Of a stretch of DNA of 64,000 bases, positions 1,966 through 62,841 are shown one piece after another. A program made the position numbers and the translations under genes. The stretch's first letter is position 1, and each line of letters starts with the position of its first letter. The stretch is from Beroe forskalii (lineage: Eukaryota; Ctenophora; Nuda; Beroida; Beroidae), in the NCBI GenBank assembly GCA_011033025.1, contig WFMF01000197.1, positions 248,001 through 312,000 on the forward strand, in the 5' to 3' direction. The notes beneath the pieces were generated by a model. That model did not search any database. It saw only the letters and a list, made by a program, of their open reading frames with translations, and had not been told where the DNA came from.

Positions 1966-4900
1966 CTTGTGGTTGTTACAGTCACTAATGTACAGGTTAT
2001 CTTCAGTATCCACTGCTATTGAGTTGGGTGTAATCTGGTCCCCTTGTGCTGTGTATACACCGAACTGCATCAACCCAGCGCCCTTCAGGTTCACTACCTG
2101 CAACGATATATTCTCTGAATCTCAATGTCAAACAAAGTTTGTATGCTACCTTCAGAATATTGGATCGAGTCAAATGTCGATTTTTTCATGATTAGAAATT
2201 AGAACCTTGATAATATAACCTTGATTTTAGACCAAACATTTCATGTTGTCGCCAAAAATCATAATGAGACAGCAAGTGAAGGGACAGATAGTAACAGTGA
2301 TTGTAACTGTAAAAAGTCAACAAGTTTCAGGACCATGATGATTTAGTACCTGAATGAAAGTGTATCCCCAATCCACGACAAACAACTTGCCCCTGTTGAT
2401 GGCGATGCTCCTGGGAGCTTGTAAGTGTAGGCTGTCTCCCAGGGTCCTCTGGAACTTTCCCTCCTTGTCAAACACCTGAGGACACATGAGTCAATTAATA
2501 ACCAATGATAAACATCTAACTTTTAAGTTCAATACGTTACAAGACGTGCATTTGATCTATTACTCACGGCTACTCCATGCTACCTAACTATCTTACGATT
2601 TGAGAGTTGATGTGTATCATCAACTGCACCACGCTATGGAAAAAGCGCGCGTTATGGAAAAAGCGGCAGTTACCTCACGTATTTGCCGCAGGTAAGACCT
2701 GTATCCGCTGGTTGTAGAGGTCCGCCACGTAGATATTGTCGTTCTTATCCACCGCCACGGAGTGCGGCCCGTCGAAGTCGCCCTCCTCCTTGCCGTACTT
2801 GCCGAACACGATGTTCCGGCGCCCGGTCTGCGATATGACGCGGACCCTGTGGTTGCCGGTGTCAGCCACCACCACCGAGTTCTCTGAGTTAACGCACACG
2901 GAGAAGGGCCGGTTGAGGATGCCACTAAGGGACCGCTGGTGGGAACCCTCCTGGGTGTACCAGTGCAGCGAGTTCCTGGGGTGGCAAGGTAATAATGAAC
3001 AGTGAGTTCCTGGGGTGGCAAGGTAATAATGTGAGTTTATAAAAAAATAATGTGAGTTTAAAACCTTAATCCTCCTTTCTCCTCCAATCCTCAATCTCGT
3101 AACTCTCTGATATTTATGATAATTTTTACTATTTTAGGTTTGGTAAAATTACCACCAATATATTATTGCCAATTCAGTAAAAACCAACAACCAATCATAT
3201 GATTGAATCACCAAATTACCTGAAAGTATCTGCCACGATGATCATGCCGTTAGTGTCGATGCACACATCGTTAGGTCTGTCGAAAGAGCAGCCGTCCCCG
3301 TCCTGCTCTATGCTTAGTTCGTGTTGCAGAGTGGAGTTGAGGATCTGGACACGGTGATTGCCTGCATCCGCGATGTACAGGGCCCCACGGTGGGACCGCA
3401 GCCCCAGCGGGTATTGGAACTGTCCTGGCTCACTCCCCCGTCCCCCGACAATGTGCCCAGTTAGGGCCGAGTTACCTGTACCAGAGGAGGGGTTATTAGG
3501 GCCGAGCTACCTGTAGGTATCAGAGGAGGGGTTATTAGGGCCGAGCTACCTGTACCAGAGGAGGGGTTATTAGGGCCGAGTTACCTGTATCAGAGGAGGT
3601 GTTATTAGGGCCGAGTTACCTGTATCAGTGGAGGGGTAACTGGTGTGCAGTGGAATTTCTGTCACCTGTTTGCAAGGAGAGGACTATGTTCTGTCACCTG
3701 TTTGCAAGGAGAGGACTATGTTCTGTCACCTGTTTGCAAGGAGAGGACTATGTTCTGTCACCTGCTTGTAAGTAGAGGACTATGTTCTGTCACCTGTTTG
3801 CAAGGAGAGGACTATGTTCTGTCACCTGCTTGTAAGTAGAGGACTATGTTCTGTCACCTGTTTGCAAGGAGAGGACTATGTTCTGTCACCTGTTTGCAAG
3901 GAGAGGACTATGTTCTGTCACCTGTTTGCAAGGAGAGGACTATGTTCTGTCACCTGTTTGCAAGGAGAGGACTATGTTCTGTCACCTGTTTGCAAGGAGA
4001 GGACTATGTTCTGTCACCTGTTTGCAAGGAGAGAATTATGTTCTGTCACCTGTTTGCAAGGAGAGGACTATGTTCTGTCACCTGTTTGCAAGGAGAGGAC
4101 TATGTTCTGTCACCTGTTTGCAAGGAGAGGACTATGTTCTGTCACCTGTTTGCAAGGAAAGGAATATGTTCTGTCACCTTTTACAAGGAGAGGACTATGT
4201 TCTGTCACCTGTTTGCAAGGAGAGTACTATGTTCTGTCACCTGTTTGCAAGGAGAGTACTATGTTCTGTCACCTGTTTGCAAGGAGAGGACTATGTTCTG
4301 TCACCTGTTTACAAGGAGAGGACTATGTTCTGTCACCTGTTTGCAAGGAGAGGACTGTGTTCTGTCACCTGTTTGCAAGGAGAGGACTATGTTCTGTCAC
4401 CTGTTTGCAAGGAGAGGACTATGTTCTGTCACCTGTTTGCAAGGAGAGAATTATGTTCTGTCACCTGTTTGCAAGGAGAGAATTATGTTCTGTCACCTGT
4501 TTGCAAGGAGAGGACTATGTTCTGTCACCTGTTTGCAAGGAGAGGACTATGTTCTGTCACCTGTTTGCAAGGAGAGGACTATGTTCTGTCACCTGTTTGC
4601 AAGGAAAGGAATATGTTCTGTCACCTTTTTACAAGGAGAGGACTATGTTCTGTCACCTGTTTGCAAGGAGAGTACTATGTTCTGTCACCTGTTTGCAAGG
4701 AGAGTACTATGTTCTGTCACCTGTTTGCAAGGAGAGGACTATGTTCTGTCACCTGTTTACAAGGAGAGGACTATGTTCTGTCACCTGTTTGCAAGGAGAG
4801 GACTATGTTCTGTCACCTGTTTGCAAGGAGAGGACTATGTTCTGTCACCTGTTTACAAGGAGAGGACTATGTTCTGTTACCTGTTTGCAAGGAGAGGACT

Positions 4901-5425
4901 ATGTTCTGGTCCCCCAAACTGCGCACAGCCCTGCAGATGTTATCCAGGTTGTGGGGCTCGAAGGTCAGGTCTTTGGTTTCCACGTACTGTACGGAGGAGG
5001 GGGCAGAGGGGTTACTCAGCAGATCCCCCACTGCCTGCTCCATCAGATCGGAGTCGGAGTACTGCAACGTCTCCAGGACTTTCTGCTTTCGCTGCAAAGA
5101 TTATACACGTGAGTAGTTTAGAGACCACATCCCTGCTTCTGTGAAGAAGTCGAAGAAAAATAATAAACGTATCGTTATAATAGAGACTCTCTTTATCATA
5201 TTGATGAAATAGAAATATCAAGCTCACTTTGTCAAGTGCGTTCTTCTTGGAGATAAGTCGTTCTCTCTGTCGGTTGAGGATCTCTTGAGACAGTCTCCTG
5301 TCTCTATCCAGTGCCGAAATGAGACTCTTCTCTCGGCCACGCAGTGCTGCGATGCATTTCTCCACCGAGTCTGATATCACTTTCTTAGCATACGTCATCG
5401 ACCCTTCTAGCTGGCTTTTTGATTG
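1939..5425 (-). CDS. TRIM-NHL-type protein, coiled coil plus six NHL repeats (3' part of gene)
   Basis: I assembled six minus-strand exons with consistent phases: 5425-5228, 5091-4881, 3475-3220, 2975-2699, 2475-2350 and 2097-1939. They give 408 residues and a TGA stop. Residues 1-90 are a charged coiled coil. About 140-408 hold six NHL blades with typical signatures such as YIADAGNHRVQIL, VVVADTGNHRVRVIS, IYVADLYNQRIQVFDKEG and LYISDCNNHKVY, enough to close a propeller. NHL propellers of TRIM proteins usually bind RNA or protein partners. No start codon or B-box is visible upstream of 5,425; RING exons on the same strand at 26.4-26.8 kb are candidates for the N-terminus. The intron 3476-4880 is built from repeated splice junctions, and the acceptor at 2975 is also duplicated. 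The donor at 2698 is the weak GTCTTA. Confidence 0.85.
2976..3060 (-). repeat. Duplicated 3' splice junction of an NHL exon
   Basis: A 34-bp unit containing the acceptor tract TTGCCACCCCAG and the first exon bases GAACTC is present twice, with starts at 2,971 and 3,005 on the plus strand. The inner copy keeps the NHL frame. A 14-16-bp unit (AATAATGTGAGTTT) is doubled next to it. Two competing acceptors are therefore 34 nt apart. Confidence 0.75.
3476..3640 (-). repeat. Tandem copies of a 3' splice junction
   Basis: Four extra copies of a 36-40-bp unit lie directly upstream (minus strand) of the NHL exon that starts at 3,475. Each contains the acceptor and first exon bases, TACAG|GTAACTCGGCC or TACAG|GTAGCTCGGCC. 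The native junction is the fifth copy. One copy carries an extra GTA. Every unit is a juxtaposed AG|GT acceptor/donor-like site. Confidence 0.85.
3656..4880 (-). repeat. 32-bp minisatellite, about 38 copies of a 5' splice junction
   Basis: A highly uniform 32-bp array. On the minus strand each unit reads CTTGCAAACAG|GTGACA followed by GAACATAGTCCTCTC. The unit equals the last 26 nt of the NHL-gene exon ending at 4,881 plus the first 6 nt of its intron, so the donor is repeated throughout. A few units vary (TACAAGG, GAGTACT, GAATT or GGAATAT forms on the plus strand). Because 32 is not a multiple of 3, all three plus frames stay open over 400 codons; these are not genes. Confidence 0.9.
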
Positions 5426-9848: not shown

Positions 9849-12606
9849 AACAAACAAATAAAATACAGTACCGCAAGGGGCATGAATCTGGGCCCTACAA
9901 CAAAAATACCGGACTCAGGACATTCTTTTCCATTTTTCTTGTCCTGGATACTTGAAATAAATAAGAAAATGGAGGAGAAACCTTTGCCTTTTTCATCTCC
10001 TTAATCAGGAAACTGAGCATATTTTTTCGACTCAAGTCGGTTAGGCAGTTAACTTCTTGAGTTGAGGCCATTGGGGTCTATTACCCAACTGGTACTTATA
10101 GTTAAGCGTCCAATAGTTTGCTTAGTTACCTGCCCTCTACTCTTCAGACAATTTGGCACGCCAACATATCAGCCTCGCCGCTTGCGGCACGACCGTCACC
10201 CCTCAGACTTAATTGTTAAATATGAGGGGTCTTGTCGTTGGCACAGCGCATCCTCGGAAGCGCACATACATACAGCTAAGGATATTTATGCTAATAATGA
10301 AAACTCTAAGGTTAGTAACGGTTAGGTTGAGGGGTTATGAATTGGATTAGAACTATACGCGTGAGGACTCCGATTATGGGCGACAATTAGGGCTTGAGTT
10401 ATGGTTATAGCCAAAGGGATTATTGTTGGAATGTGAGGGTTCAGGGTTGGAGTTTGGGGTTTGGCTTACCGGCTTAGGTTTATGGTAAGGTGGTAGGGTT
10501 ACGGTTGAAGTTATATTAATACATATACACGCGCCTATCGGGTCCATTTTGGGATACTTCCAGAGGGCGTTAGCCCGAGGGATGTATCCGGTTTTGGCCC
10601 GAGCCCGTAGGGCGAGAGTCTAAACCAATATGGACCCGATCAGGCAAGTGTCTATATATTATTATAGACCCGCATGAAAACGTCAGAGGGTTCTATAAAA
10701 TATATACAAGAGGTTAGTGGTGACTGGTAAGGGATTGAAGGTAGGAATTTTGTAATTGTCGCCGTAAGGGCTTTAGGCCTTAAGGGTACGTATTAGGTCA
10801 CGAGATAGGGTCAGGCCTAAAATTAAAGTTAGAGTTAGAAGAGGCCGTAGATAGAAGGTTAAGGTTAGGGCTAAAAGTTAGGATTTATGAGTGAAGGCAG
10901 TAATACCCTCAATATGCGTGGCTTCCATCACACAATGGCCATGTTTATATACATACGACTTGTTGATAATTTTCTATAATATGCCTCAGATATTCTCAGG
11001 AACAGAGTTCTGGATCGAACTTTGGCAATAATTTGGCAAGGGCAATTTTTGTTTCTCGGCCAAGGATCTGTACATGTCTAACCCTTGACACTAACCCTCC
11101 CAAGAAATATATATTTACTAGCAAGTCACTATTACAAACATGGCCACTAAGTTGCTGCTTTTTTGTGTCCAAAACGAAGGCTCTACGAAGTACGAACTTC
11201 CTGGGCTGAGATACTAGAACTGCCTTTGCCATGTCTTGCAAATGAACAAAAAGAAGTTTTTGCCCGTAACTCCGTTCCTTAGCATTTTAGGGCATGTGTC
11301 TATTTGACAACTGACAAGTCGTATATAAACATGGCCATTGCGATTCACTTGCGCCAAAAACGAAGCCTCTACCACCATCCTGGGCCGAGGTACAAAAATT
11401 GCCTCTGCTATGTCTGGCAAATGACTGAAAATCAATTTTTGGCCCATAACTCTGTCCCTGAATGTTTTAGAAGAAGTTCTCTGTAAAAATAACATAATAA
11501 CATGGCCTTTGCGATTCTTTTGCGCCCAAAAAAGTCTCTGCGACATTTCTGGGCCGAGATACAAAAATTACCTCTGACCTGTATATTGCGCTTCATTGAA
11601 CAAGTGGTGCTCGGCCCATAACTTTGTTCCTGAGCACAATGGGGCATATTTACAGAAAGAATTCTACAGAAACATGACATTTTGCGATTCTTTTGCGCTC
11701 AAAACGAAGTCTCTATGACCTTCCTGGGCCGAGATACAAAAATTACATCCGCCATGTCTTGCGAATGACCAAAAAATTAGTTTGTCGCCAACTACTTCGT
11801 TCCTGAGCATTTAAGGGCATATATATTTAAGGGATGAAACTTTATAACTAACCTCTTACGCACTGTTAAATTCATTTGACTGTCATCATATTACACAGAT
11901 AATGACCTAAATTATAATTTTAGACCAGGATTTGAGTTTTTGTATGTAATTCACTTAGTATAAGTTGGTTTTCGTGGCTTTTCTTGAGAAAAAATGTCTT
12001 GGTTCGGCAACTGCTAGAAAAATTTTTGTCCAAGGGGCCGGTTAAAATGGTTCAAAAATGATTCGAATTTTGTCCATAAGGCCGGTTAAAAAAAGGGACG
12101 GTTAAAAAAGGCCGGTTAAATAAAGGCCAATAAGGTATAGTGATAACAAGTGTGACCACAAGATTATTGGTTCATATCAAGGAATGATTCATATACCTTC
12201 TTATTTCAATATTGGAATCTTGACGGCCGGCGGGCTCTACTCCCCTGAATAATACAAATATTGAAGCTTGTATGTCACTGATTTTCCGTTTAAAATCATG
12301 ATAATGACGCTTCCTTCCACCTACTTCTAAATTATCTGCTGCTTGGTGATTACTAAACGAATGAACATGGGCCTCAGAGACCAGCCACTGTTCACAGTCT
12401 GAAGTTAGACTGGGAAGGTCGGCAGGTCTACCTTCAGGGGGATATAAATAGCCTTGTTCTCTGAATAGAGCATCGCAGCTGAATCGCAGACGAATGATGA
12501 AAAACATGAATTATTTAAATCAACTCTCTTTTGAATCTCATTTTACTTAAATTTTACTAAAATTCATCGTAATGAAAATAGGCATGAAAGCCAAGGCTTA
12601 CTTGCC
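9849..12606. other. Repeat-rich spacer between secreted-protein genes
   Basis: No supported gene. It contains degenerate GGTTAGGG-like sequence at 10,310-10,500 and 10,705-10,890 around a MITE at 10,520-10,700. Relics of the CTCGGCC(A/C)AGGAAGGTC family occur at 10,930-11,830. A dispersed repeat with GGCCGGTTAAA motifs lies at 11,830-12,135 and recurs at 22.3-22.7 kb. A 111-codon minus frame at 12,172-12,507 starts with ATG but matches nothing I recognise. Confidence 0.5.
10520..10700 (-). mobile_element. MITE copy 1 (GGGTCCAT family)
   Basis: An element of about 140-180 bp with inverted ends of the type TAGACAC..GCCT.ATCGGGTCCAT and an internal CCCGAGGG..CCGGTTTTGG..CCCTACGGGC core. Two further copies lie inside the BRK1 duplication in the opposite orientation. 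No coding capacity. Confidence 0.7.
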
Positions 12607-12835: not shown

Positions 12836-13571
12836 ATGACTAGGAGTACTGTCTTATTGCAGTGTTTCATTCTTTCTGCCACTGTCCCAACGAGTCTCAC
12901 CAAAGGTAAAGTTGTCTTCCTTGTTTACTTCAACAGTTTAGCATCACATTTTCATCAGAAATTCAGGTGTTATAATGGAAGTGGAACAAAATCATTGAAA
13001 TATTCATTGTGCTCAATCTAAGGGACGATATATAGTATCTTTTTCAGATTGCACCCTAAAGGTGACTTGTGACAATACTGTGGATTCTCTGTTTGTGGAC
13101 GGAGCTAAATCCCTTCTCCCAGAGGCTGAGATTGGGAACTGGCAGAAAGAGAAGAGTGCAGTTATTTCCAGCACCATTGCCGTGGTCGCAGTGCAGTGTA
13201 CGGATTCTGGTGGGTCTGCCGGCATTCTGCTATCTGTGCAGTGTCGAGATGATGTGGTGTTTGAGACGTCTGGCAGCTGGAAATGTAGCACTGAGAGCCA
13301 TGTTGGGTGGGAAAAACCCGGCTTCCTCATGTACTCAACCCAATGGCAAGCTGCCAAGGCCATCAAAAAACATGGAAGTCCGCCTTGGTACACTATAGGC
13401 GAAATTTCGAGTTCTGCAATGTGGATTTGGTCGGAGACTGCTGCCACTACAGTATACTGCAGGGGTGCTGTCAATGGCATCTACAATATGATAGGTATTA
13501 TGGCATCTACACTGATAGGTATTACGGCATCTACACTGATAGGTATTACGGCATCAACAATATCAATATGA
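12836..13571 (+). CDS. Secreted CDN-domain protein, paralogue 2
   Basis: Exon 1 (12836-12905, 70 nt) encodes the signal peptide MTRSTVLLQCFILSATVPTS and ends in phase 1 at GTAAAG. Exon 2 begins at 13,048 after TTTTTCAG and restores D-C-T-L-K-V-T-C-D-N. The domain of about 150 residues has the motifs LFVDG, AVQC, GILLSVQC, SGSWKCS, GWEKPGFLMYSTQW, AMWIWSE and VYCRGA, with six cysteines as in the other copies. It looks like a lectin-like or galactose-binding beta sandwich, but I cannot assign a named family. The frame then runs into a 24-bp repeat that adds copies of G-I-T-A-S-T-L-I before a stop at 13,569-13,571. An alternative is that the exon ends at the donor-like ATAG|GTATTA at 13,495 and an unseen 3' exon follows. 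Confidence 0.75.
13488..13565 (+). repeat. 24-bp in-frame repeat over a donor-like site
   Basis: Three units of GATAGGTATTACGGCATCTA plus CACT lie at the 3' end of secreted paralogue 2. Each contains ATAG|GTATTA, the donor-like sequence that paralogue 3 has once and paralogue 4 has as ATAG|GTATTT. Because 24 is a multiple of 3, the reading frame is kept. Confidence 0.8.
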
Positions 13572-17976: not shown

Positions 17977-19669
17977 CAAATCATTATAGATGAGTAGGGC
18001 TAGAAAGTTTTAGAGTGAGTGATGACATGGTGCAGTAGTAACACGGCACAGACCACAGTGGTAACATGGCGGTAAGGATACATGGCGAGAGGTCACATTC
18101 TGGGGAGGTTACATGAAGGAATGGCAACCTTTTGAGTTCGAAGAATGACGGAAACATCTTGCTCTTACAAACTGTTGACAGAGCTCGAGTTTTCGGGAGG
18201 GGGCTAACTCTCTATAATTCGACATTATCATCCATCTCTTAACTTAGATATTTTATACAGAAAAGGAGCCCTATCCTATTATCGCAGGTATAATATTAGT
18301 TTACCTTTATAGCTATATGAACCCGAAATATAGCTATATGACCCCGAAATATAGCTACATGACTCGGATGTCGTCTTGGCATTGACCAATCAGCGGACGA
18401 GTTTGCAGTCAACTCTTTCACTGAATGGTCAATGCCGAAGGAGCCTAGCATCCCTTCTCACTTTCCCACCTGATGTGGCTAAGTCTGCTTTCCACTTCGC
18501 TTTGAGAGGACGAGCAACTGTGTTCAACGCTGTGCAGCTTAACTCGTACCTGAAATGGACTTTGACAATGGTATGATTTAAACTTTATTAAATTTTATAG
18601 TTCAATACAATCAAATTATCTTGATCGCCTCTTTGGACATCCCCAACCACCTTTGATAATTACACAACTATTGACAAGTGGCTTCATATAATATGATGCA
18701 GCCCAATTAACCACACCTCAGTATTGGTCATTGTCCAAGAATATGACCTGCTGTTTTACCAAGAATTTAGTGGATCACAGTCAACGTATCTCATTTCTGC
18801 AGTCTGTAGTCCCACTCATAAGAGTTGTGAACCAATTAAGCAATTAAGTACAGCTGTCAAGATTTCCTAATCGGTTTAGGAGGTTCAAACAGCAAAGTCA
18901 CTTCTTGACTAGAAACTCACCTCATCACTAAAAACTCACCTCATCACTAGAAACTCACCTCCTCACTAGAAACTCACTTCCTCACTAGAAACTCATCTCC
19001 TTCCTAAAAACTCACCTCCTGACTAGAAACTCACTTCCTCACTAGAAACTCATCTCCTCACTAGAAACTCATATCCTCACTAGAAACTCACCTCCTCACT
19101 AGCTTGGGCGAGAGTGGTAGTGCTGTGTAGCTTGTGTGTGGTCACTGCACACAGGGTACAACAACTTTCACTGCAATCCTTGCAATACATCTGAAATAGA
19201 ACAGTTCGTTTTGGGAGTGCAGTGGTTTAAAAATGGAAAGAATATGATTTTTTTGGTACATCGAGCAAACGCGCCCCCAAGTCCTGGTGAACTTTTTGGC
19301 AAAGTGCTTGGTTATGGAATACTCTCCTTTGTATTGTCAGAAGTTGTCTACCCCCGCGAGGGAGTGAGACAACATCGGACAATCTTTGTATCCCCTTATA
19401 TTTCCCAATTTATTTCCCCATTCCCCCTTTGGTTCCCTACTTATTAAAATATTTCACAATTTAAGTATCTATGGAAGAACATTTGCTGTTCTATAAGTGT
19501 GTTCTATTACGATATAGCTAGCGTCTTAGCGGACATTACATCTGTATGTATTCCTTCAGTTAGCGAAAATTCCACCCATTATATCGATTCCCTTCCCTTT
19601 TCTTGCGTCTTGCGCCCATTGTGTTGAATTTTAGGAGTTTTATCCAATGCGGAAAGGAGCACCACTTAC
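17977..19669. other. Spacer with an 18-19-bp minisatellite
   Basis: About ten units of CTAGAAACTCACCTCCTCA lie at 18,905-19,100. A 66-codon plus frame at 18,376-18,576 ends at a donor-like ATG|GTATGA and is GC-richer than its surroundings, but I recognise no domain and no matching acceptor phase. Nothing else is supported. Confidence 0.5.
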
Positions 19670-20544: not shown

Positions 20545-21272
20545 TCTTCCAAGCTGATACTCCAGGCTGGTACTCCAGGCTGGTACTCCAAGCTGATACT
20601 CCAGGCTGGTACTCCAGGCTGGTACTCCAGGCTGATACTCCAAGCTGATACTCCAGGCTGGTACTCCAGGCTGGTACTCCAGGCTGATACTCCAGGCTGG
20701 TACTCCAGGCTGGTACTCAAGGCTGGTACTCCAGGCTGATACTCCAGACTGGTACTCCAGGTTGGTACTCCAGGCTGGTACTCCAGGCTGGTACTCCAGG
20801 CTGGTACTCCAGGCTGGTACTCCAGGCTGGTACTCCAGGCTGGTACTCCAAGCTGGTACTCCAGGCTGGTACTCCAGGCTGGTATTCCAAGCTGGTACTC
20901 CAGGCTGGTACTCCGGGCTGATACTCCAGGCTGGCACTCCAGGCTGGTACTACAGGCTGATACTCCAGGCTGGTACTCCAAGCTGGTACTCCAGGCTTGT
21001 ACTCCAGGCTGGTACTCCAAGCTGGTACTCCAGGCTGGTACTCCAAGCTGGTACTCGAGGCTGGTACTCCAGGCTGGTACTCCAAGCTGATACTCCAGGC
21101 TGGTACTCCAGGCTGGTACTCCAGGCTGGTACTCCAGGCTGGTACTCCAGGCTGGTACTCCATGCTGATACTCCAGGCTGGTACTCCAGGCTGGTACTCC
21201 AGGCTGGTACTCCATTCTGATACTCCAGGCTGGTACTCCAGGCTGGTAATCCAGGCTGATACTCCAGGCATC
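20545..21272 (-). repeat. 13-bp minisatellite, about 55 copies
   Basis: A very regular array of GGCTGGTACTCCA with variants AAGCTGGTACTCCA and GGCTGATACTCCA. It begins about 25 bp past the stop codon of the PAN-like gene. Since 13 is not a multiple of 3, several frames on both strands stay open; the repeated E-Y-Q-P-G-V-P-A-W-S-T-S-L peptide is an artefact unless read-through occurs. Confidence 0.9.
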
Positions 21273-43576: not shown

Positions 43577-46500
43577 GTACAGTCAAAATTGGATTTAAAA
43601 GTGGACAAATTCGACTCCAAGCGATTTTGCGTGGTTTCCATGGTTTTTTGCATGAAAAATCGATCTAGCAACTTTCCACACCTCTCCGAGTTGTGGAAAG
43701 TGCCGAAAAATCGATTTTTAGCCGAGGCGCAGCCGACTGATATGTAAAAAATCGTATCTTGGCTCAGGAAGGTCGTAGAGACTTCATCTTGGGCGGAAAA
43801 TGTGTGTAATGGCCATGTTTATATACAACTTGTTAATCTATTATTATAATCGAGAGAGGTAGTTATAAGTAGGAGCCTCCGCTCTCCCAGAAAATCTGAC
43901 AAACTAGGAGTTGAAAAACCGCGATTTTTTGCAGGGTGGTAGAAAAAAGGTGTCTTCGTATTGCTACATTCTTCTTTTTTGAGTAAAGGCTTTAGATTTT
44001 TTGTGGTTAACGCTCAAAGTTGGAAAAAGGGTCGCGAAAACATGATCGAGTTTTAGATTTGATTCACCAGTTGAGCGCGTTGTTATGGATACATGGCTAC
44101 GCGCGCAAAACTGCACGTGCATTTTCACGAAGAATCTGCCATTTCGTTGTTGTATATTTTGGAAACGTTTCCACTGTTGAAATTCATAATTTATACGTTC
44201 CCAATAGAATTTTCGAGTTCGGTAAAAAGTTTTTGACCGAAGACTAACTTATCACCGTCGTAGGAGAAATGGTAAGAGTTGTTCCATCTTTCCATTATGA
44301 AAATTAGCGGTAATTCTTTCAAGAAAACAATTCGATGGTTTGCTGCGAGAATTCGACGGAATGAGGAATTCAATTATTTACTGAAGCTAGAAGTGGGTTA
44401 TGAAAAGATAAAAAATGCAAACAATTTTGATTTTAATGAGCTCGGATTCAAATTTGTTGCCCATCTATTCTCCTAATCTGAACTTAAGATTAAAAAACAT
44501 AATTTTTGAGTTCTTCTTATTTAACAGCTGTTTGTTCGAGGTTGATATGCAATCGTAAAATTTGGTCTATATTTTCATTTATTTTCAAAGCCCTTATGTG
44601 AATATTTCGTAATTTCGTTACGTTGCACCCCCACCCCCAGTAACAAAAAATTGCATCAATGAATAACTTAGTGTAAGATATCACATTTTACACTTCCAAA
44701 CTTAAAAAAACCGCAATTGTTCATTTTATTCCAATTTCATACGTTTCAATTGTTTTTGTCATTAATTTTCATAATTCAATATTATTATTCATTAAACTTG
44801 CGTTGTGGCTCATGAATTTTGAAAATACTGCGTACTTTAATGTCCATTTTTCAACTTTTCAAGTCTAAGAAACCAGGTCCTGACTAGGGCAATTATATGC
44901 TGGCATGGTGGTGCCCTGTAGCCAGCATTGAAAGGGTCGGGTGTCCTGTGACCCAGAAGGCCCAACGGGCCTTCTAGTAAACATATGCTCTAAAATGCTC
45001 ACAAACTGAGTTATGGGCCAAAAACCATTTTTGGGGCACCCGCATGGCCTAATTTAGGTTATTTCGATATCTTGGCTCAGGAAGGTCGTAGAGACTTCAT
45101 CTTGGGCGGAAAATGTGCGCAATGAGCATGTTTATGTACAATTGTTAATAGACAAATGCTCTGAAATACTCAGGAACCGAGTTATGGGCCAAAACCATTT
45201 TGGGGCACCGCATGGCCTAATTGAAGTATTTCGATATCTTGGCTCAGGAAGGTCGTAGAGACTTCTTCTTGGATGGAAAATGTGCGCAATGGCCATGTTT
45301 ATATACGACTTGTTAATAAACATATGCTCTGAAATGCTCACAAACCGAGTTATGGGCCAAAAACCATTTTTTGGGGCACCCGCATGGCCTAATTTAGAGT
45401 ATTTCGGTATCTTGGCTCAGGAAGGTCGTAGAGACTTAATCGTGGGTAGAAAATATGCGCAATGGCCATTTTTATACACGACTTGTTGATAAACATATGC
45501 TCTAAAATGCTCACAAACTGAGTTATGGGCCCTTCATGGTTTAACGCAGGGTATTTCAGTATTTCGGTGCCTTGCCTCTTGGCTCAGGAAACATGCAGAT
45601 ATTTGGTTTTGGAGTTTTGGGTTGTGTGTGCGCAGTTTATTGACAACTTTTTAACAAACTTGCACCATAAAATGTTCGAAGGCCGAATTATGAGCCAAAA
45701 CTGGTCTCAGGACACCCATGAGTTGAATTCCATGCTTCAGCTAAGGAAGGTCGTAGAGAATTCATTTTCGGTGTGAAAACTATAACATGCATTATGCAAT
45801 GGTCATTGGTCATGTTTCTTATATACGTCATGATTTGCTCATAAAGATTTGCTCTGGAATACCAACGACTCAAAAATTCGGTTTGAGTCTAGTAGGAGTC
45901 GAATGCCAAGGCTGCAAACCAATATATATGGGCCAACCCAAAACAAAATATCTACGGCTTTACTGAGTCAAGACACCGAAATACCCTGAATTAAACCATG
46001 AGGGTGCCCAAAATGGTTATGGGCCCATAACTCAGTTTGTGAGCAATCTATAGCATATGTTTATTAACAAGTCGTATATAAACATGGCCATTGCGTACAT
46101 TTTCACACCGAAAATGAATTCTCTACGACCTTCCTTAGCTGAAGCATGGAATTCACCTCATGGGTGTCCTGAGACCAGTTTTGGCCCATAATTCGGCCTT
46201 CGAACATTTTATGGTGAAAGTTTGTTAAAAAGTGGTCAATAAACTGCGCACACACAATCCAAAACTCCAAAACCAAATATCTGCATGTTTCCTGAGCCAA
46301 GAGGCAAGGCACCGAAATACTGAAATACCCTGCGTTAAACCATGAAGGTGCCCAAAATGATTATGGGCCCATAACTCAGTTTGTGAGCATTTTAGAGCAT
46401 ATTTTTATCAACAAGTCGTATATAAAAATGGCCATTGCGCACATTTTCCACCCAAGATGAAGTCTCTACGACCTTCCTGAGCCAAGATACCGAAATACTC

Positions 46501-47183
46501 TAAATTAGGCCATGCGGGTGCCCCAAAAATTGTTTTGGCCCATAACTCGGTTTGTGAGCATTTCAGAGCATATGTTTATTAACAAGTCGTATATTAACAT
46601 GGCCATTGCGCACATTTTCCATCCAAGAAGAAGTCTCTACGACCTTCCTGAGCCAAGATATCGAAATAGCCTAAATTAGGCCATGCGGGTGCCCCAAAAA
46701 TGGTTTTTGGCCCATAACTCGGTTCCTGAGTATTTCAGAGCATTTGTCTATTAACAATTGTACATAAACATGCTCATTGGTGCACATTTTCCGCCCAAGA
46801 TGAAGTCTCTACGACCTTCCCAAGATATCGAAATAGCCTAAATTAGGCCATGCGGGTGCCCCAAAAATGGTTTTTGGCCCATAACTCAGTTTGTGAGCAT
46901 TTTAGAGCATATGTTTATCAACAAGTTGTATATAAACATGGCTATTGCGCACAATTTCCGCCCAAGATGAAGTCTCTACGACCTTCCTGAGCCGAGATAC
47001 GATTTTTTACATATCAGTCGGCTGCGCCTCGGCTAAAAATCGATTTTCGGCACTTTCCACAACTCCGAGTGTGGAAAGTTGCTAGATCGATTTTTCATGC
47101 AAAAAACCATGGAAACCACTCAAAATCGCTTGGAGTCGAATTTGTCCACTTTTTTGGCTATTTTTTGCCAGATTTGACTGTAC
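43577..47183. mobile_element. Fold-back transposon with long inverted repeats
   Basis: It starts GTACAGTCAAA and ends TTTGACTGTAC, flanked on both sides by TA (43,575-43,576 and 47,184-47,185). The outer 200 bp are inverted copies (AAGTGGACAAATTCGACTCC, CCATGG, GCCGAGGCGCAGCCGACTGA). Each arm then carries direct repeats of about 175 bp containing CTTGGCTCAGGAAGGTCGTA and CCCATAACTC on the two strands. The left arm also holds about 1.1 kb of non-inverted DNA (43,840-44,980) with two short ORFs of unknown nature. TA duplication and the GTACAGTC end fit a Tc1/mariner-related non-autonomous element. No transposase is visible. Confidence 0.85.
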
Positions 47184-61685: not shown

Positions 61686-62833
61686 GCCACTTTGTCCAGG
61701 CGCCAGTCTAATGCAGGTCTAGCGCCGGTTTAATGCAGGTCTAACGCCAGTCTAGTGCATGTCTAATGCAGGTTTGGCGCCGGTTTTTTGCAGGTTTAGC
61801 GCCGGTTTAGCGCGGGGCCAGCGCCAGTCTAATGCAGGTCCTGTGCCACTCTAATGCAGGTCTAGCGCCGGTTGAGCGCGGGTACAGCGCTGGTGCAATG
61901 CAGGTCTAGCGCCGGTTTAATGCAGGTCTTGTGCCAGTCTAGTGCCACTCTAATGCAGGTCTAGCGCCGGTTTGGTGCAGGTCCAGCGCTGGTTTAGCGC
62001 GGGTGCAGTGCTGGTCCAATGCACCTCGGATGCTATCTCAATATTACTTATGCATTTTATACAGATTTGGCGCCGATTAAATTATGCAGGTTTGACGTCG
62101 TTTCATGCATGTTTGGCGCTGTTTTAATGCAGGTGCAACGCCATTCCAATGCAGGTTAGTTACCACCGTTAGCCATGGTAACGTCCGTTAGCGCCCATCG
62201 GTAACCATTGTAACATACGTTACTACATTAGTGACCAGTGACCACCGTTTACCATGATAACCCACGTTAGTTACCATCGGTAACCATGGTAACCCACCTA
62301 AGTTACGACCGGTAACCATGGTGACGTACGTTAGCTACCATCGGTAACCATGGTAACCAACGTTAGTTACCAGGTCGGTAACCATGGTAACGTTCGTAAG
62401 TAACCACCGGTAACCATGGTAACGTTCGTCAGTTACCACAGATAACCATGGTAATGTACGTAAGTTACCATCGGTAACCATGGTAACCTCTGTTAGTTAA
62501 CACCGGTAACAATGATGAAGTACGTTAGTTACCACCGGTAACTAGAATTGAACATGCTAAACCTGCATGAAACTGGCGCCAAACCCGCATTGGAATGGCG
62601 TTGCACATGCATTAAAACAGCGCCAAACATTCATGAAAAGACGTCAAACCTGCATAATTTAATCGGCGCCAAATCTGTATGAAATACATAAGTAATATTG
62701 AGATAGCATCCGAGGTGCATTAGACTGGCGCTGACTCCGCGCTGGACCTGCACCAAACCGGCGCTAGACCTGCATTAGAGTGGCACTAGACTGGCACAAG
62801 ACCTGCATTAAACCGGCGCTAGACCTGCATTGC
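61686..62833. repeat. Inverted satellite with X-box-like centre
   Basis: Left arm: about 20 units of 18-20 bp, GGTCTAGCGCCGGTTTAATGCA. Centre (62,150-62,540): repeats of ACCGGTAACCATGGTAACGT. Right arm: the left arm in reverse complement (CCAAATCTGTAT, CGCCAAAC, GCGTTGCAC and GAGATAGCATCCGAGGTGCA all pair with 62,020-62,140). The whole is a large fold-back structure that resumes at 63,926 and runs off the window. Confidence 0.85.
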
Positions 62834-62841
62834 ACCAGCGC

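Follow-up and report, generated by a model that had tools for sequence, protein, structure and literature searches.

We identified an NHL-repeat gene on the minus strand at ~5.1-1.9 kb of the window, by which we mean the whole 64,000-nt stretch of DNA that was analysed (contig positions 248001-312000, from a 216-Mb assembly of 1134 contigs). The three exons of this gene, once joined, match the Pfam NHL family (PF01436) at 1.6e-29, and a separate piece at 2121-1942 matches at 2.2e-5. An exon at 19190-19092 carries a B-box domain (Pfam zf-B_box, 1.1e-5), and the presence of B-box and NHL domains on the same strand and in this order suggests that they may belong to one TRIM-NHL gene. Between the two lies an exon at 5.4 kb that looks coiled-coil-like by eye and has no Pfam match. 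We focus here on the 1405-nt intron that precedes the first NHL repeats, whose exon boundaries were set by the reading frame, the Pfam NHL match on the joined exons, and the splice consensus. Its parts are collected in Table 1 together with other arrays of the window that span, or probably span, exon-intron junctions; a slash within a sequence marks the junction.

Table 1. Parts of the 1405-nt intron of the NHL gene and its flanking exons, with further junction-spanning or probably junction-spanning arrays of the window.
Feature	Position in window	Strand	Basis or remark
Upstream exon, NHL gene	4881..5091	-	Open frame RKQKV...VLSLQT, phase 1 donor, preceded by TTTGCAG
Intron GTAACA...TACAG, 1405 nt	3476..4880	-	Sole pair of 904 with the NHL frame open
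Array 1, donor side, 32-nt unit in 38 intronic copies (one copy 31 nt)	3666..4880	-	TRF 3657-4908
Unique remainder between the arrays, 46 nt, GTGACAGAAATTCC...GATACAG	3620..3665	-	
Array 2, acceptor side, 4 extra copies of the acceptor plus the first ~15 nt of the next exon	3476..3619	-	TRF 3461-3637, family D2
Downstream exon, first NHL repeats	3220..3475	-	Pfam PF01436 on joined exons
Acceptor duplication in the next intron, 34-nt unit x1.9, CACCCCAG/GAACTC	2966..3031	-	TRF; real exon starts at 2975
Donor-spanning array, 19-nt unit x10.3, CTAGTGAGGAG/GTGAGTTT	18908..19102	-	TRF; end of the B-box exon 19190-19092
Probable donor-spanning array, 24-nt unit x3.4, GGCATCTACACTGATAG/GTATTAC	13476..13559	+	TRF, alignment A1

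The first-pass annotation had described this intron as ~38 extra copies of a 32-nt unit at its start and four extra copies of the acceptor and exon start at its end, with ~46 nt of intron remaining if the copies are removed. The unit list and TRF bear out the first of these statements with 38 intronic copies, the site positions agree with the second, and the third follows from the composition of the intron, in which array 1 accounts for 1215 nt, unique sequence for 46 nt, and array 2 for 144 nt of the total of 1405 nt. Of the 39 units in array 1, 38 measure 32 nt and the remaining one 31 nt; all are intronic apart from unit 0 (4907-4876), which is mostly exonic and whose exonic part is the last 27 nt of the upstream exon (4907-4881). 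The annotated derivation of the unit from the exon end plus the intron start is correct, while its supposed identity with the first six intron nucleotides is not, as the real donor reads CAG/GTAACA and the copies read CAG/GTGACA. TRF reports 39.2 copies with 95% matches and a score of 2301, and with 39 copies chance is not an issue. Ten unit sequences follow one another in a structured order, with the modal form in 21/39 units and nine other forms in the remainder, and a higher-order duplication of 14 units is apparent from the identity of non-modal units, which is 5/14 at lag 14, 3/17 at lag 1, and 2/14 at lag 13. The unit is bounded by CAGAA words 32 nt apart, one of which begins 28 nt upstream of the end of the exon, while the other, as read downstream of the last copy, begins at position 5 of the intron. 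In gene order, the five acceptor copies of array 2, the real one among them, are spaced by 35, 35, 39, and 35 nt, and TRF gives the unit of this array as 35 nt with 89% matches.

Minisatellite copy numbers are easily misassembled, and a single genome was at hand, so that the array or its length might be wrong. An assembly artefact is nonetheless very unlikely, given the ten different unit sequences that stand in structured order among the 39 units and the several unrelated junction arrays found elsewhere in the genome. The plus strand also contains stop-free frames (3772-5112, 3836-5116, and 3840-5144) from which a coding repeat with three open frames of 426-446 aa might be read. A stop-free 32-nt unit is, however, automatically open in three frames, and on that ground we dropped the idea; moreover, the array ends where a recognisable gene of the opposite strand has its splice junctions. 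A dispersed satellite or intron-like element (e.g. an introner) would be characterised by many genomic copies, whereas a search of the whole genome with the 32-nt unit gave 18 matches, all on the window's own contig and at this one locus, a result that carries a caveat for common words; with the same caveat, this idea was dropped as well. That the array is a plus-strand coding repeat or a dispersed element of either kind appears to us scarcely credible.

Between the first donor and the last acceptor there are 44 AGGT sites, against an expectation of ~4.6 on one strand of 1405 nt, calculated from the outside density. As had been noted, each looks like a 3' site that runs directly into a 5' site; 42 of them read CAGGT and two AAGGT. 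AG/GT is intact in 39/39 units of array 1 and at all five sites of array 2; the chance of its being intact in 39/39 is ~0.20 (12 distinct changes, 4 of 32 positions), and its retention in array 1 neither supports nor refutes selection. When 904 donor/acceptor pairs were tested, all at least 45 nt apart, the frame into the NHL exon was open for one of them (4880/3475), in agreement with the earlier statement that, short of stepwise removal, the frame is kept only if the first donor is joined to the last acceptor. Among the 903 wrong single-step products, 901 keep a GT...AG stretch of at least 46 nt whose removal gives the exact right mRNA, a count that describes what is possible and not what happens; in the remaining two products, 32 or 35 nt are left behind. 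Out of the 11 positions of CAGGTAAGTAT, the real donor matches 7, array-1 copies 5-6, and array-2 sites 7-8. The modal array-1 unit contains one UNAY motif (TGAC) and a short CT-rich tract, and the RNA fold of six array-1 units showed nothing unusual (z = +0.84).

In addition to the two arrays of the 1405-nt intron, we identified junction-spanning arrays with other units in the window. The acceptor of the next intron of the NHL gene, whose flanking open frames read ...ADTFR and NSLHWY..., is duplicated. At the B-box exon, the 19-nt unit consists of the last 11 exonic and the first 8 intronic nucleotides and recurs about ten times in the intron, with changes; GT is kept in 7/10 intronic copies and lost in 3/10, so that the copies of this array are not maintained as splice sites. 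The 24-nt array at 13.5 kb begins where three paralogous exons (13.5, 15.0, and 17.9 kb) cease to be alike, a point that we infer to be the donor. It is probably a derived state, as the paralogs at 15.0 and 17.9 kb have a single copy of the unit and no array.

One explanation of the AG/GT sites in the 1405-nt intron is a working splice ladder, in which the AG/GT copies would act as dual-specific or recursive sites, the intron would be removed stepwise, and copy number would tune the output. A ladder of this kind might, as the first-pass annotation suggested, buffer, regulate, or ratchet splicing. Such a device would suit the AG/GT present throughout array 1 (39 units) and at the five sites of array 2, the 901 products that still allow the right mRNA, the UNAY motif and CT-rich tract of the modal unit, and the partial matches of the real donor and array-1 copies to CAGGTAAGTAT. 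However, the 901/903 count arises because all sites are AG/GT, as it would in any nested AG/GT set, and needs no selection, and a spacing of 32 nt between adjacent sites very probably leaves too little room, given minimum intron sizes, for a single splicing step. The loss of GT from three copies of the 19-nt sister array and the unremarkable fold likewise argue against a ladder. While passages of PMC10809524 report that human AGGT dual-specific sites are used above expectation and are present in tandem repeats (e.g. UBC), the amphioxus arrays known as mirages, to which we return below, reportedly leave splicing undisturbed (passages of PMC3087553 and PMC3902484). A working ladder therefore seems to us improbable; for the NHL intron, stepwise removal is a possible, if unsupported, process that the form of the sites would allow.

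Exon ends copied into introns recur elsewhere in the genome. We sampled 20 internal exons, hand-picked with their sequence unseen from 135 protein-kinase matches and represented by partial domain matches, and at each of the 40 edges compared the 45 nt at the end of the domain match with the flank beyond, using 40 interior windows as controls. The exon end was copied into the flank at 5/40 edges (L036, L038, L040, L046, and L053; scores 18-26), as compared to 0/40 interior controls (maximum score 9); among the remaining edges L044 scored 12, intronic on inspection, and the others at most 10. The paralog-like L036 and L038, and L046 likewise, have the acceptor and exon start duplicated, L040 has a duplicated exon end with a decayed donor, and L053 has four donor-like sites, three of which, the real one included, come with the exon end. 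TRF arrays lay in the junction zone of 3/40 kinase edges and in the outer zones of 7/40 and 4/40. L048 and L052 were ruled out as junction-spanning TRF arrays because both stop short, and L053 alone truly spans its junction. L044 (G000:C539; 685-1024, gene orientation), which was spotted by reading and not by its score, is a 339-nt kinase intron that consists largely of arrays at its two ends, with six donor-like sites at one end and, at the other, three acceptor copies spaced by 37 nt; the real sites are counted in both numbers. It splices in frame to GTPAYL/APEV, its units contain little exon, and as far as its putative splice sites go it has the same two-ended design as the 1405-nt NHL intron.

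A second kinase sample of seven complete introns (hand-picked neighbouring match pairs, and not every such pair) had copied exon ends at 0/14 junctions, with a best score of 9 that equals the best control. Edges and interiors in the first sample differ with a Fisher p of 0.055; the pooled samples give 5/54 and 0/54 (p = 0.057, 95% interval of the rate 3-20%), or 4/53 and 0/53 if the paralogs L036/L038 are counted once (p = 0.12). The rate is thus loosely known, and the excess of edges over exon interiors is borderline. Recurrence itself is clear from the individual cases, because an exact 18-nt match by chance is expected ~1e-7 times per edge.

The 224 kb that we examined for repeats (the window, L009, and 15 further stretches) contain 160 arrays of period 10-100, which total 22.4 kb, or 10%, and some are therefore expected to straddle junctions. 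Among array units of period 18-80, CAGGT is present in 10/97 where 3.8 +/- 1.8 were expected, above all 200 draws with ten motifs tried, and this excess is compatible with the presence of junction-derived arrays. MAGGTRA is present in 3/97 units (1.4 +/- 1.1 expected), which is no clear excess in a test that is blunt, since the 19-nt and 24-nt arrays lack this motif; its three matches all fall in the NHL gene, with one of the three on the other strand.

Several other arrays were observed. Two with units of ~171-173 nt (window positions 44978-45531 and 46340-47000) are apparently inverted forms of one satellite (CCCATAACTC...CCGCATGG), to which the array at 11508-11822 may be related. The window also contains a 13-nt unit in 55 copies (TCCAGGCTGGTAC; 20548-21269), with several frames open, and dense 11- and 22-nt repeats (GTCTAATGCAG / GTCTAGCGCC; 61701-62841) with apparent inverted counterparts. 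In the NHL paralog L016 (960-1011; G000:C425), 24-nt repeats with GAGGTGAG lie just within an intron and apparently include no exon sequence.

We consider it highly probable that the 1405-nt intron carries two mirages, that is, minisatellites that straddle its 5' and 3' junctions and are masked by splicing. This reading is supported by the structure of the array, by its variants, and by the higher-order repeat of 14 units, all of them commonplace in minisatellites, and also by the CAGAA words at both ends of the unit, the abundance of minisatellites, and the recurrence of such arrays with unrelated units (34-nt, 19-nt, probable 24-nt, and kinase L053/L044). The original mirage paper is said to be Canestro 2002. 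Passages of PMC3087553 and PMC3902484 describe amphioxus mirages as minisatellite-like tandem duplications across 5' or 3' exon-intron boundaries, with units of 10-160 bp and AG/GT in many copies. The genes named there are Adh3, the globins BflGb6 and BflGb9, and TnC, the last of which is cited in PMC3902484, where similar repeats in PGBD5 are added; RT-PCR is described as suggesting regular splicing (a passage of PMC3087553). Both arrays of the NHL intron likewise have tandem units that contain exon and intron sequence at a boundary, these units (32 and 35 nt) are of minisatellite size (~10-160 bp), and AG/GT signals are present in the copies at the 44 AGGT sites. Judged by every mirage feature that can be checked from DNA alone, the intron fits, and it differs from the amphioxus cases in being affected at both ends, with 39 units at one of them.

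The first-pass annotation had regarded an array of this kind as new, a view that does not hold, since amphioxus mirages, a VNTR of human CBS, and human duplicated genes with comparable repeats had already been described. The paper on the CBS VNTR is reportedly Lievers 2001. By its name, c.1444_1467+7(16_21), this 31-bp VNTR includes 24 exonic and 7 intronic nucleotides (a passage of PMC2630376). Its donor-side design is like that of array 1, while it has 16-21 copies, a number that in CBS varies between people; it is sited at a different intron of CBS from 844ins68. For human duplicated genes, passages of PMC2812944 report tandem repeats at exon-intron boundaries, with 162 alignments and 27 intron modifications kept after inspection, and report that these repeats affect splicing. 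The position of the repeats is shared with the NHL intron, whereas in the human genes new introns and alternative transcripts can result, and variable exonic units are central; the exonic share of the NHL intron unit is ~26 nt.

Dual-specific AGGT sites in the tandem repeats of UBC and VCX3A could serve as donor or acceptor, and a model proposed in the same source holds that an expanded repeat is tolerated since splicing removes it (passages of PMC10809524). The NHL intron resembles these in its tandem AGGT sites, each a potential donor or acceptor, and differs in that a single repeat spans both ends there and the intron measures a whole number of units, whereas the NHL intron has two unrelated units and 1405 is no multiple of 32. 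Recursive splicing at Drosophila ratchet points is known from long introns (PMC8605326). The adjoined 3' and 5' sites counted above give the NHL intron the form of such points, and the form only. In contrast to the Drosophila cases, the host intron is 1.4 kb long, all but 46 nt of it is array, its sites are 32 nt apart, and it is described here from its DNA.

Both junctions of the 1405-nt intron read ACAG/GTAAC, and the intron itself might have been born by tandem duplication of an exonic segment with this sequence, the two copies then seeding both arrays. That introns can be gained through duplicated AGGT segments is an established idea, and mirages have been proposed as a route to new introns (a passage of PMC3087553). 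CAG/GT is, however, common at junctions, with further inferred junctions in the NHL gene reading CAG/GTCTTA and CAG/GTGTTT, and the 46-nt remainder does not resemble a copy of either exon, which makes such a birth an unlikely history. A comparison of six NHL paralog loci (L017 was left out, as it overlaps L013) gave no meaningful match across the junction, and the age of the intron is consequently not datable from them.

If the arrays are mirages, a slip between the two CAGAA words would have duplicated the donor segment, and a comparable event would have duplicated the acceptor segment. Slippage or unequal exchange would then have multiplied the copies, a step whose pattern is seen in the near-identical units and the 14-unit higher-order duplication. 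As far as the DNA shows, the result would be harmless if the outermost donor joins the outermost acceptor, which is the sole frame-keeping pair among those tested. Because every site is AG/GT, an internal splice would usually only shorten the array and leave a removable intron. The AG/GT ladder would thus be a by-product of minisatellite position and not an evolved device, its form needing no function because the exon end -CAG is copied together with the intron GT. Regular splicing and length variation of the 1405-nt intron are assumed by analogy with amphioxus, the 14-unit higher-order duplication being an indirect hint of unstable copy number, and harmlessness is not a given, because human boundary repeats are reported to change splicing (passages of PMC2812944).

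We also surveyed the genome for markers of its host. An Antp homeodomain, used as the query, gave 18 matches, the best of them 44% identical over 59 residues, and identity peaked at 56% over 36 residues; in bilaterians, Hox matches are as a rule far closer. Wnt gave 11 matches, while the GFP family and zf-C4 gave none in the genome, in searches whose controls were silent too, so that these negatives do not establish absence; SRCR, with 90 matches, was uninformative as to phylum. The homeodomain, Wnt, GFP, and zf-C4 results fit a ctenophore (PMC3038971, PMC2959044) and speak, short of proof, against amphioxus or any bilaterian as the host. Mirages, whose reported range is the cephalochordates, a distribution and not a definition, therefore probably extend beyond chordates. 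A partial literature search, covering titles and abstract openings, found no report of junction-spanning repeats outside chordates; the repeats described in passages on C. elegans minisatellites (PMC4039745) and earthworm metallothionein (PMC12783039) are presented there as intronic and not as junction-spanning.

In the literature covered here, junction-spanning repeats are described in amphioxus and human, and in the present case they occur repeatedly in a genome that lacks a close Hox-type homeodomain match. We doubt that junction copying is a common mode of intron growth in this probably non-bilaterian animal, with ladders that are removed stepwise and a copy number that tunes the gene. Were it so, almost any internal splice would, under stepwise removal, be a harmless shortening, and only a transcript left with one unit (32 or 35 nt) would have no way out; the frequency of such dead-end transcripts would depend on copy number, by which the gene would thus be tuned. 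More generally, our findings suggest that junction-spanning repeats are a general by-product of repeat-rich genomes, persisting where purely exonic repeats would not because splicing hides them. Junction arrays may accordingly serve as natural test objects for how the spliceosome chooses the outermost among dozens of near-identical sites, as well as for the proposed seeding of new introns by repeats of this kind.
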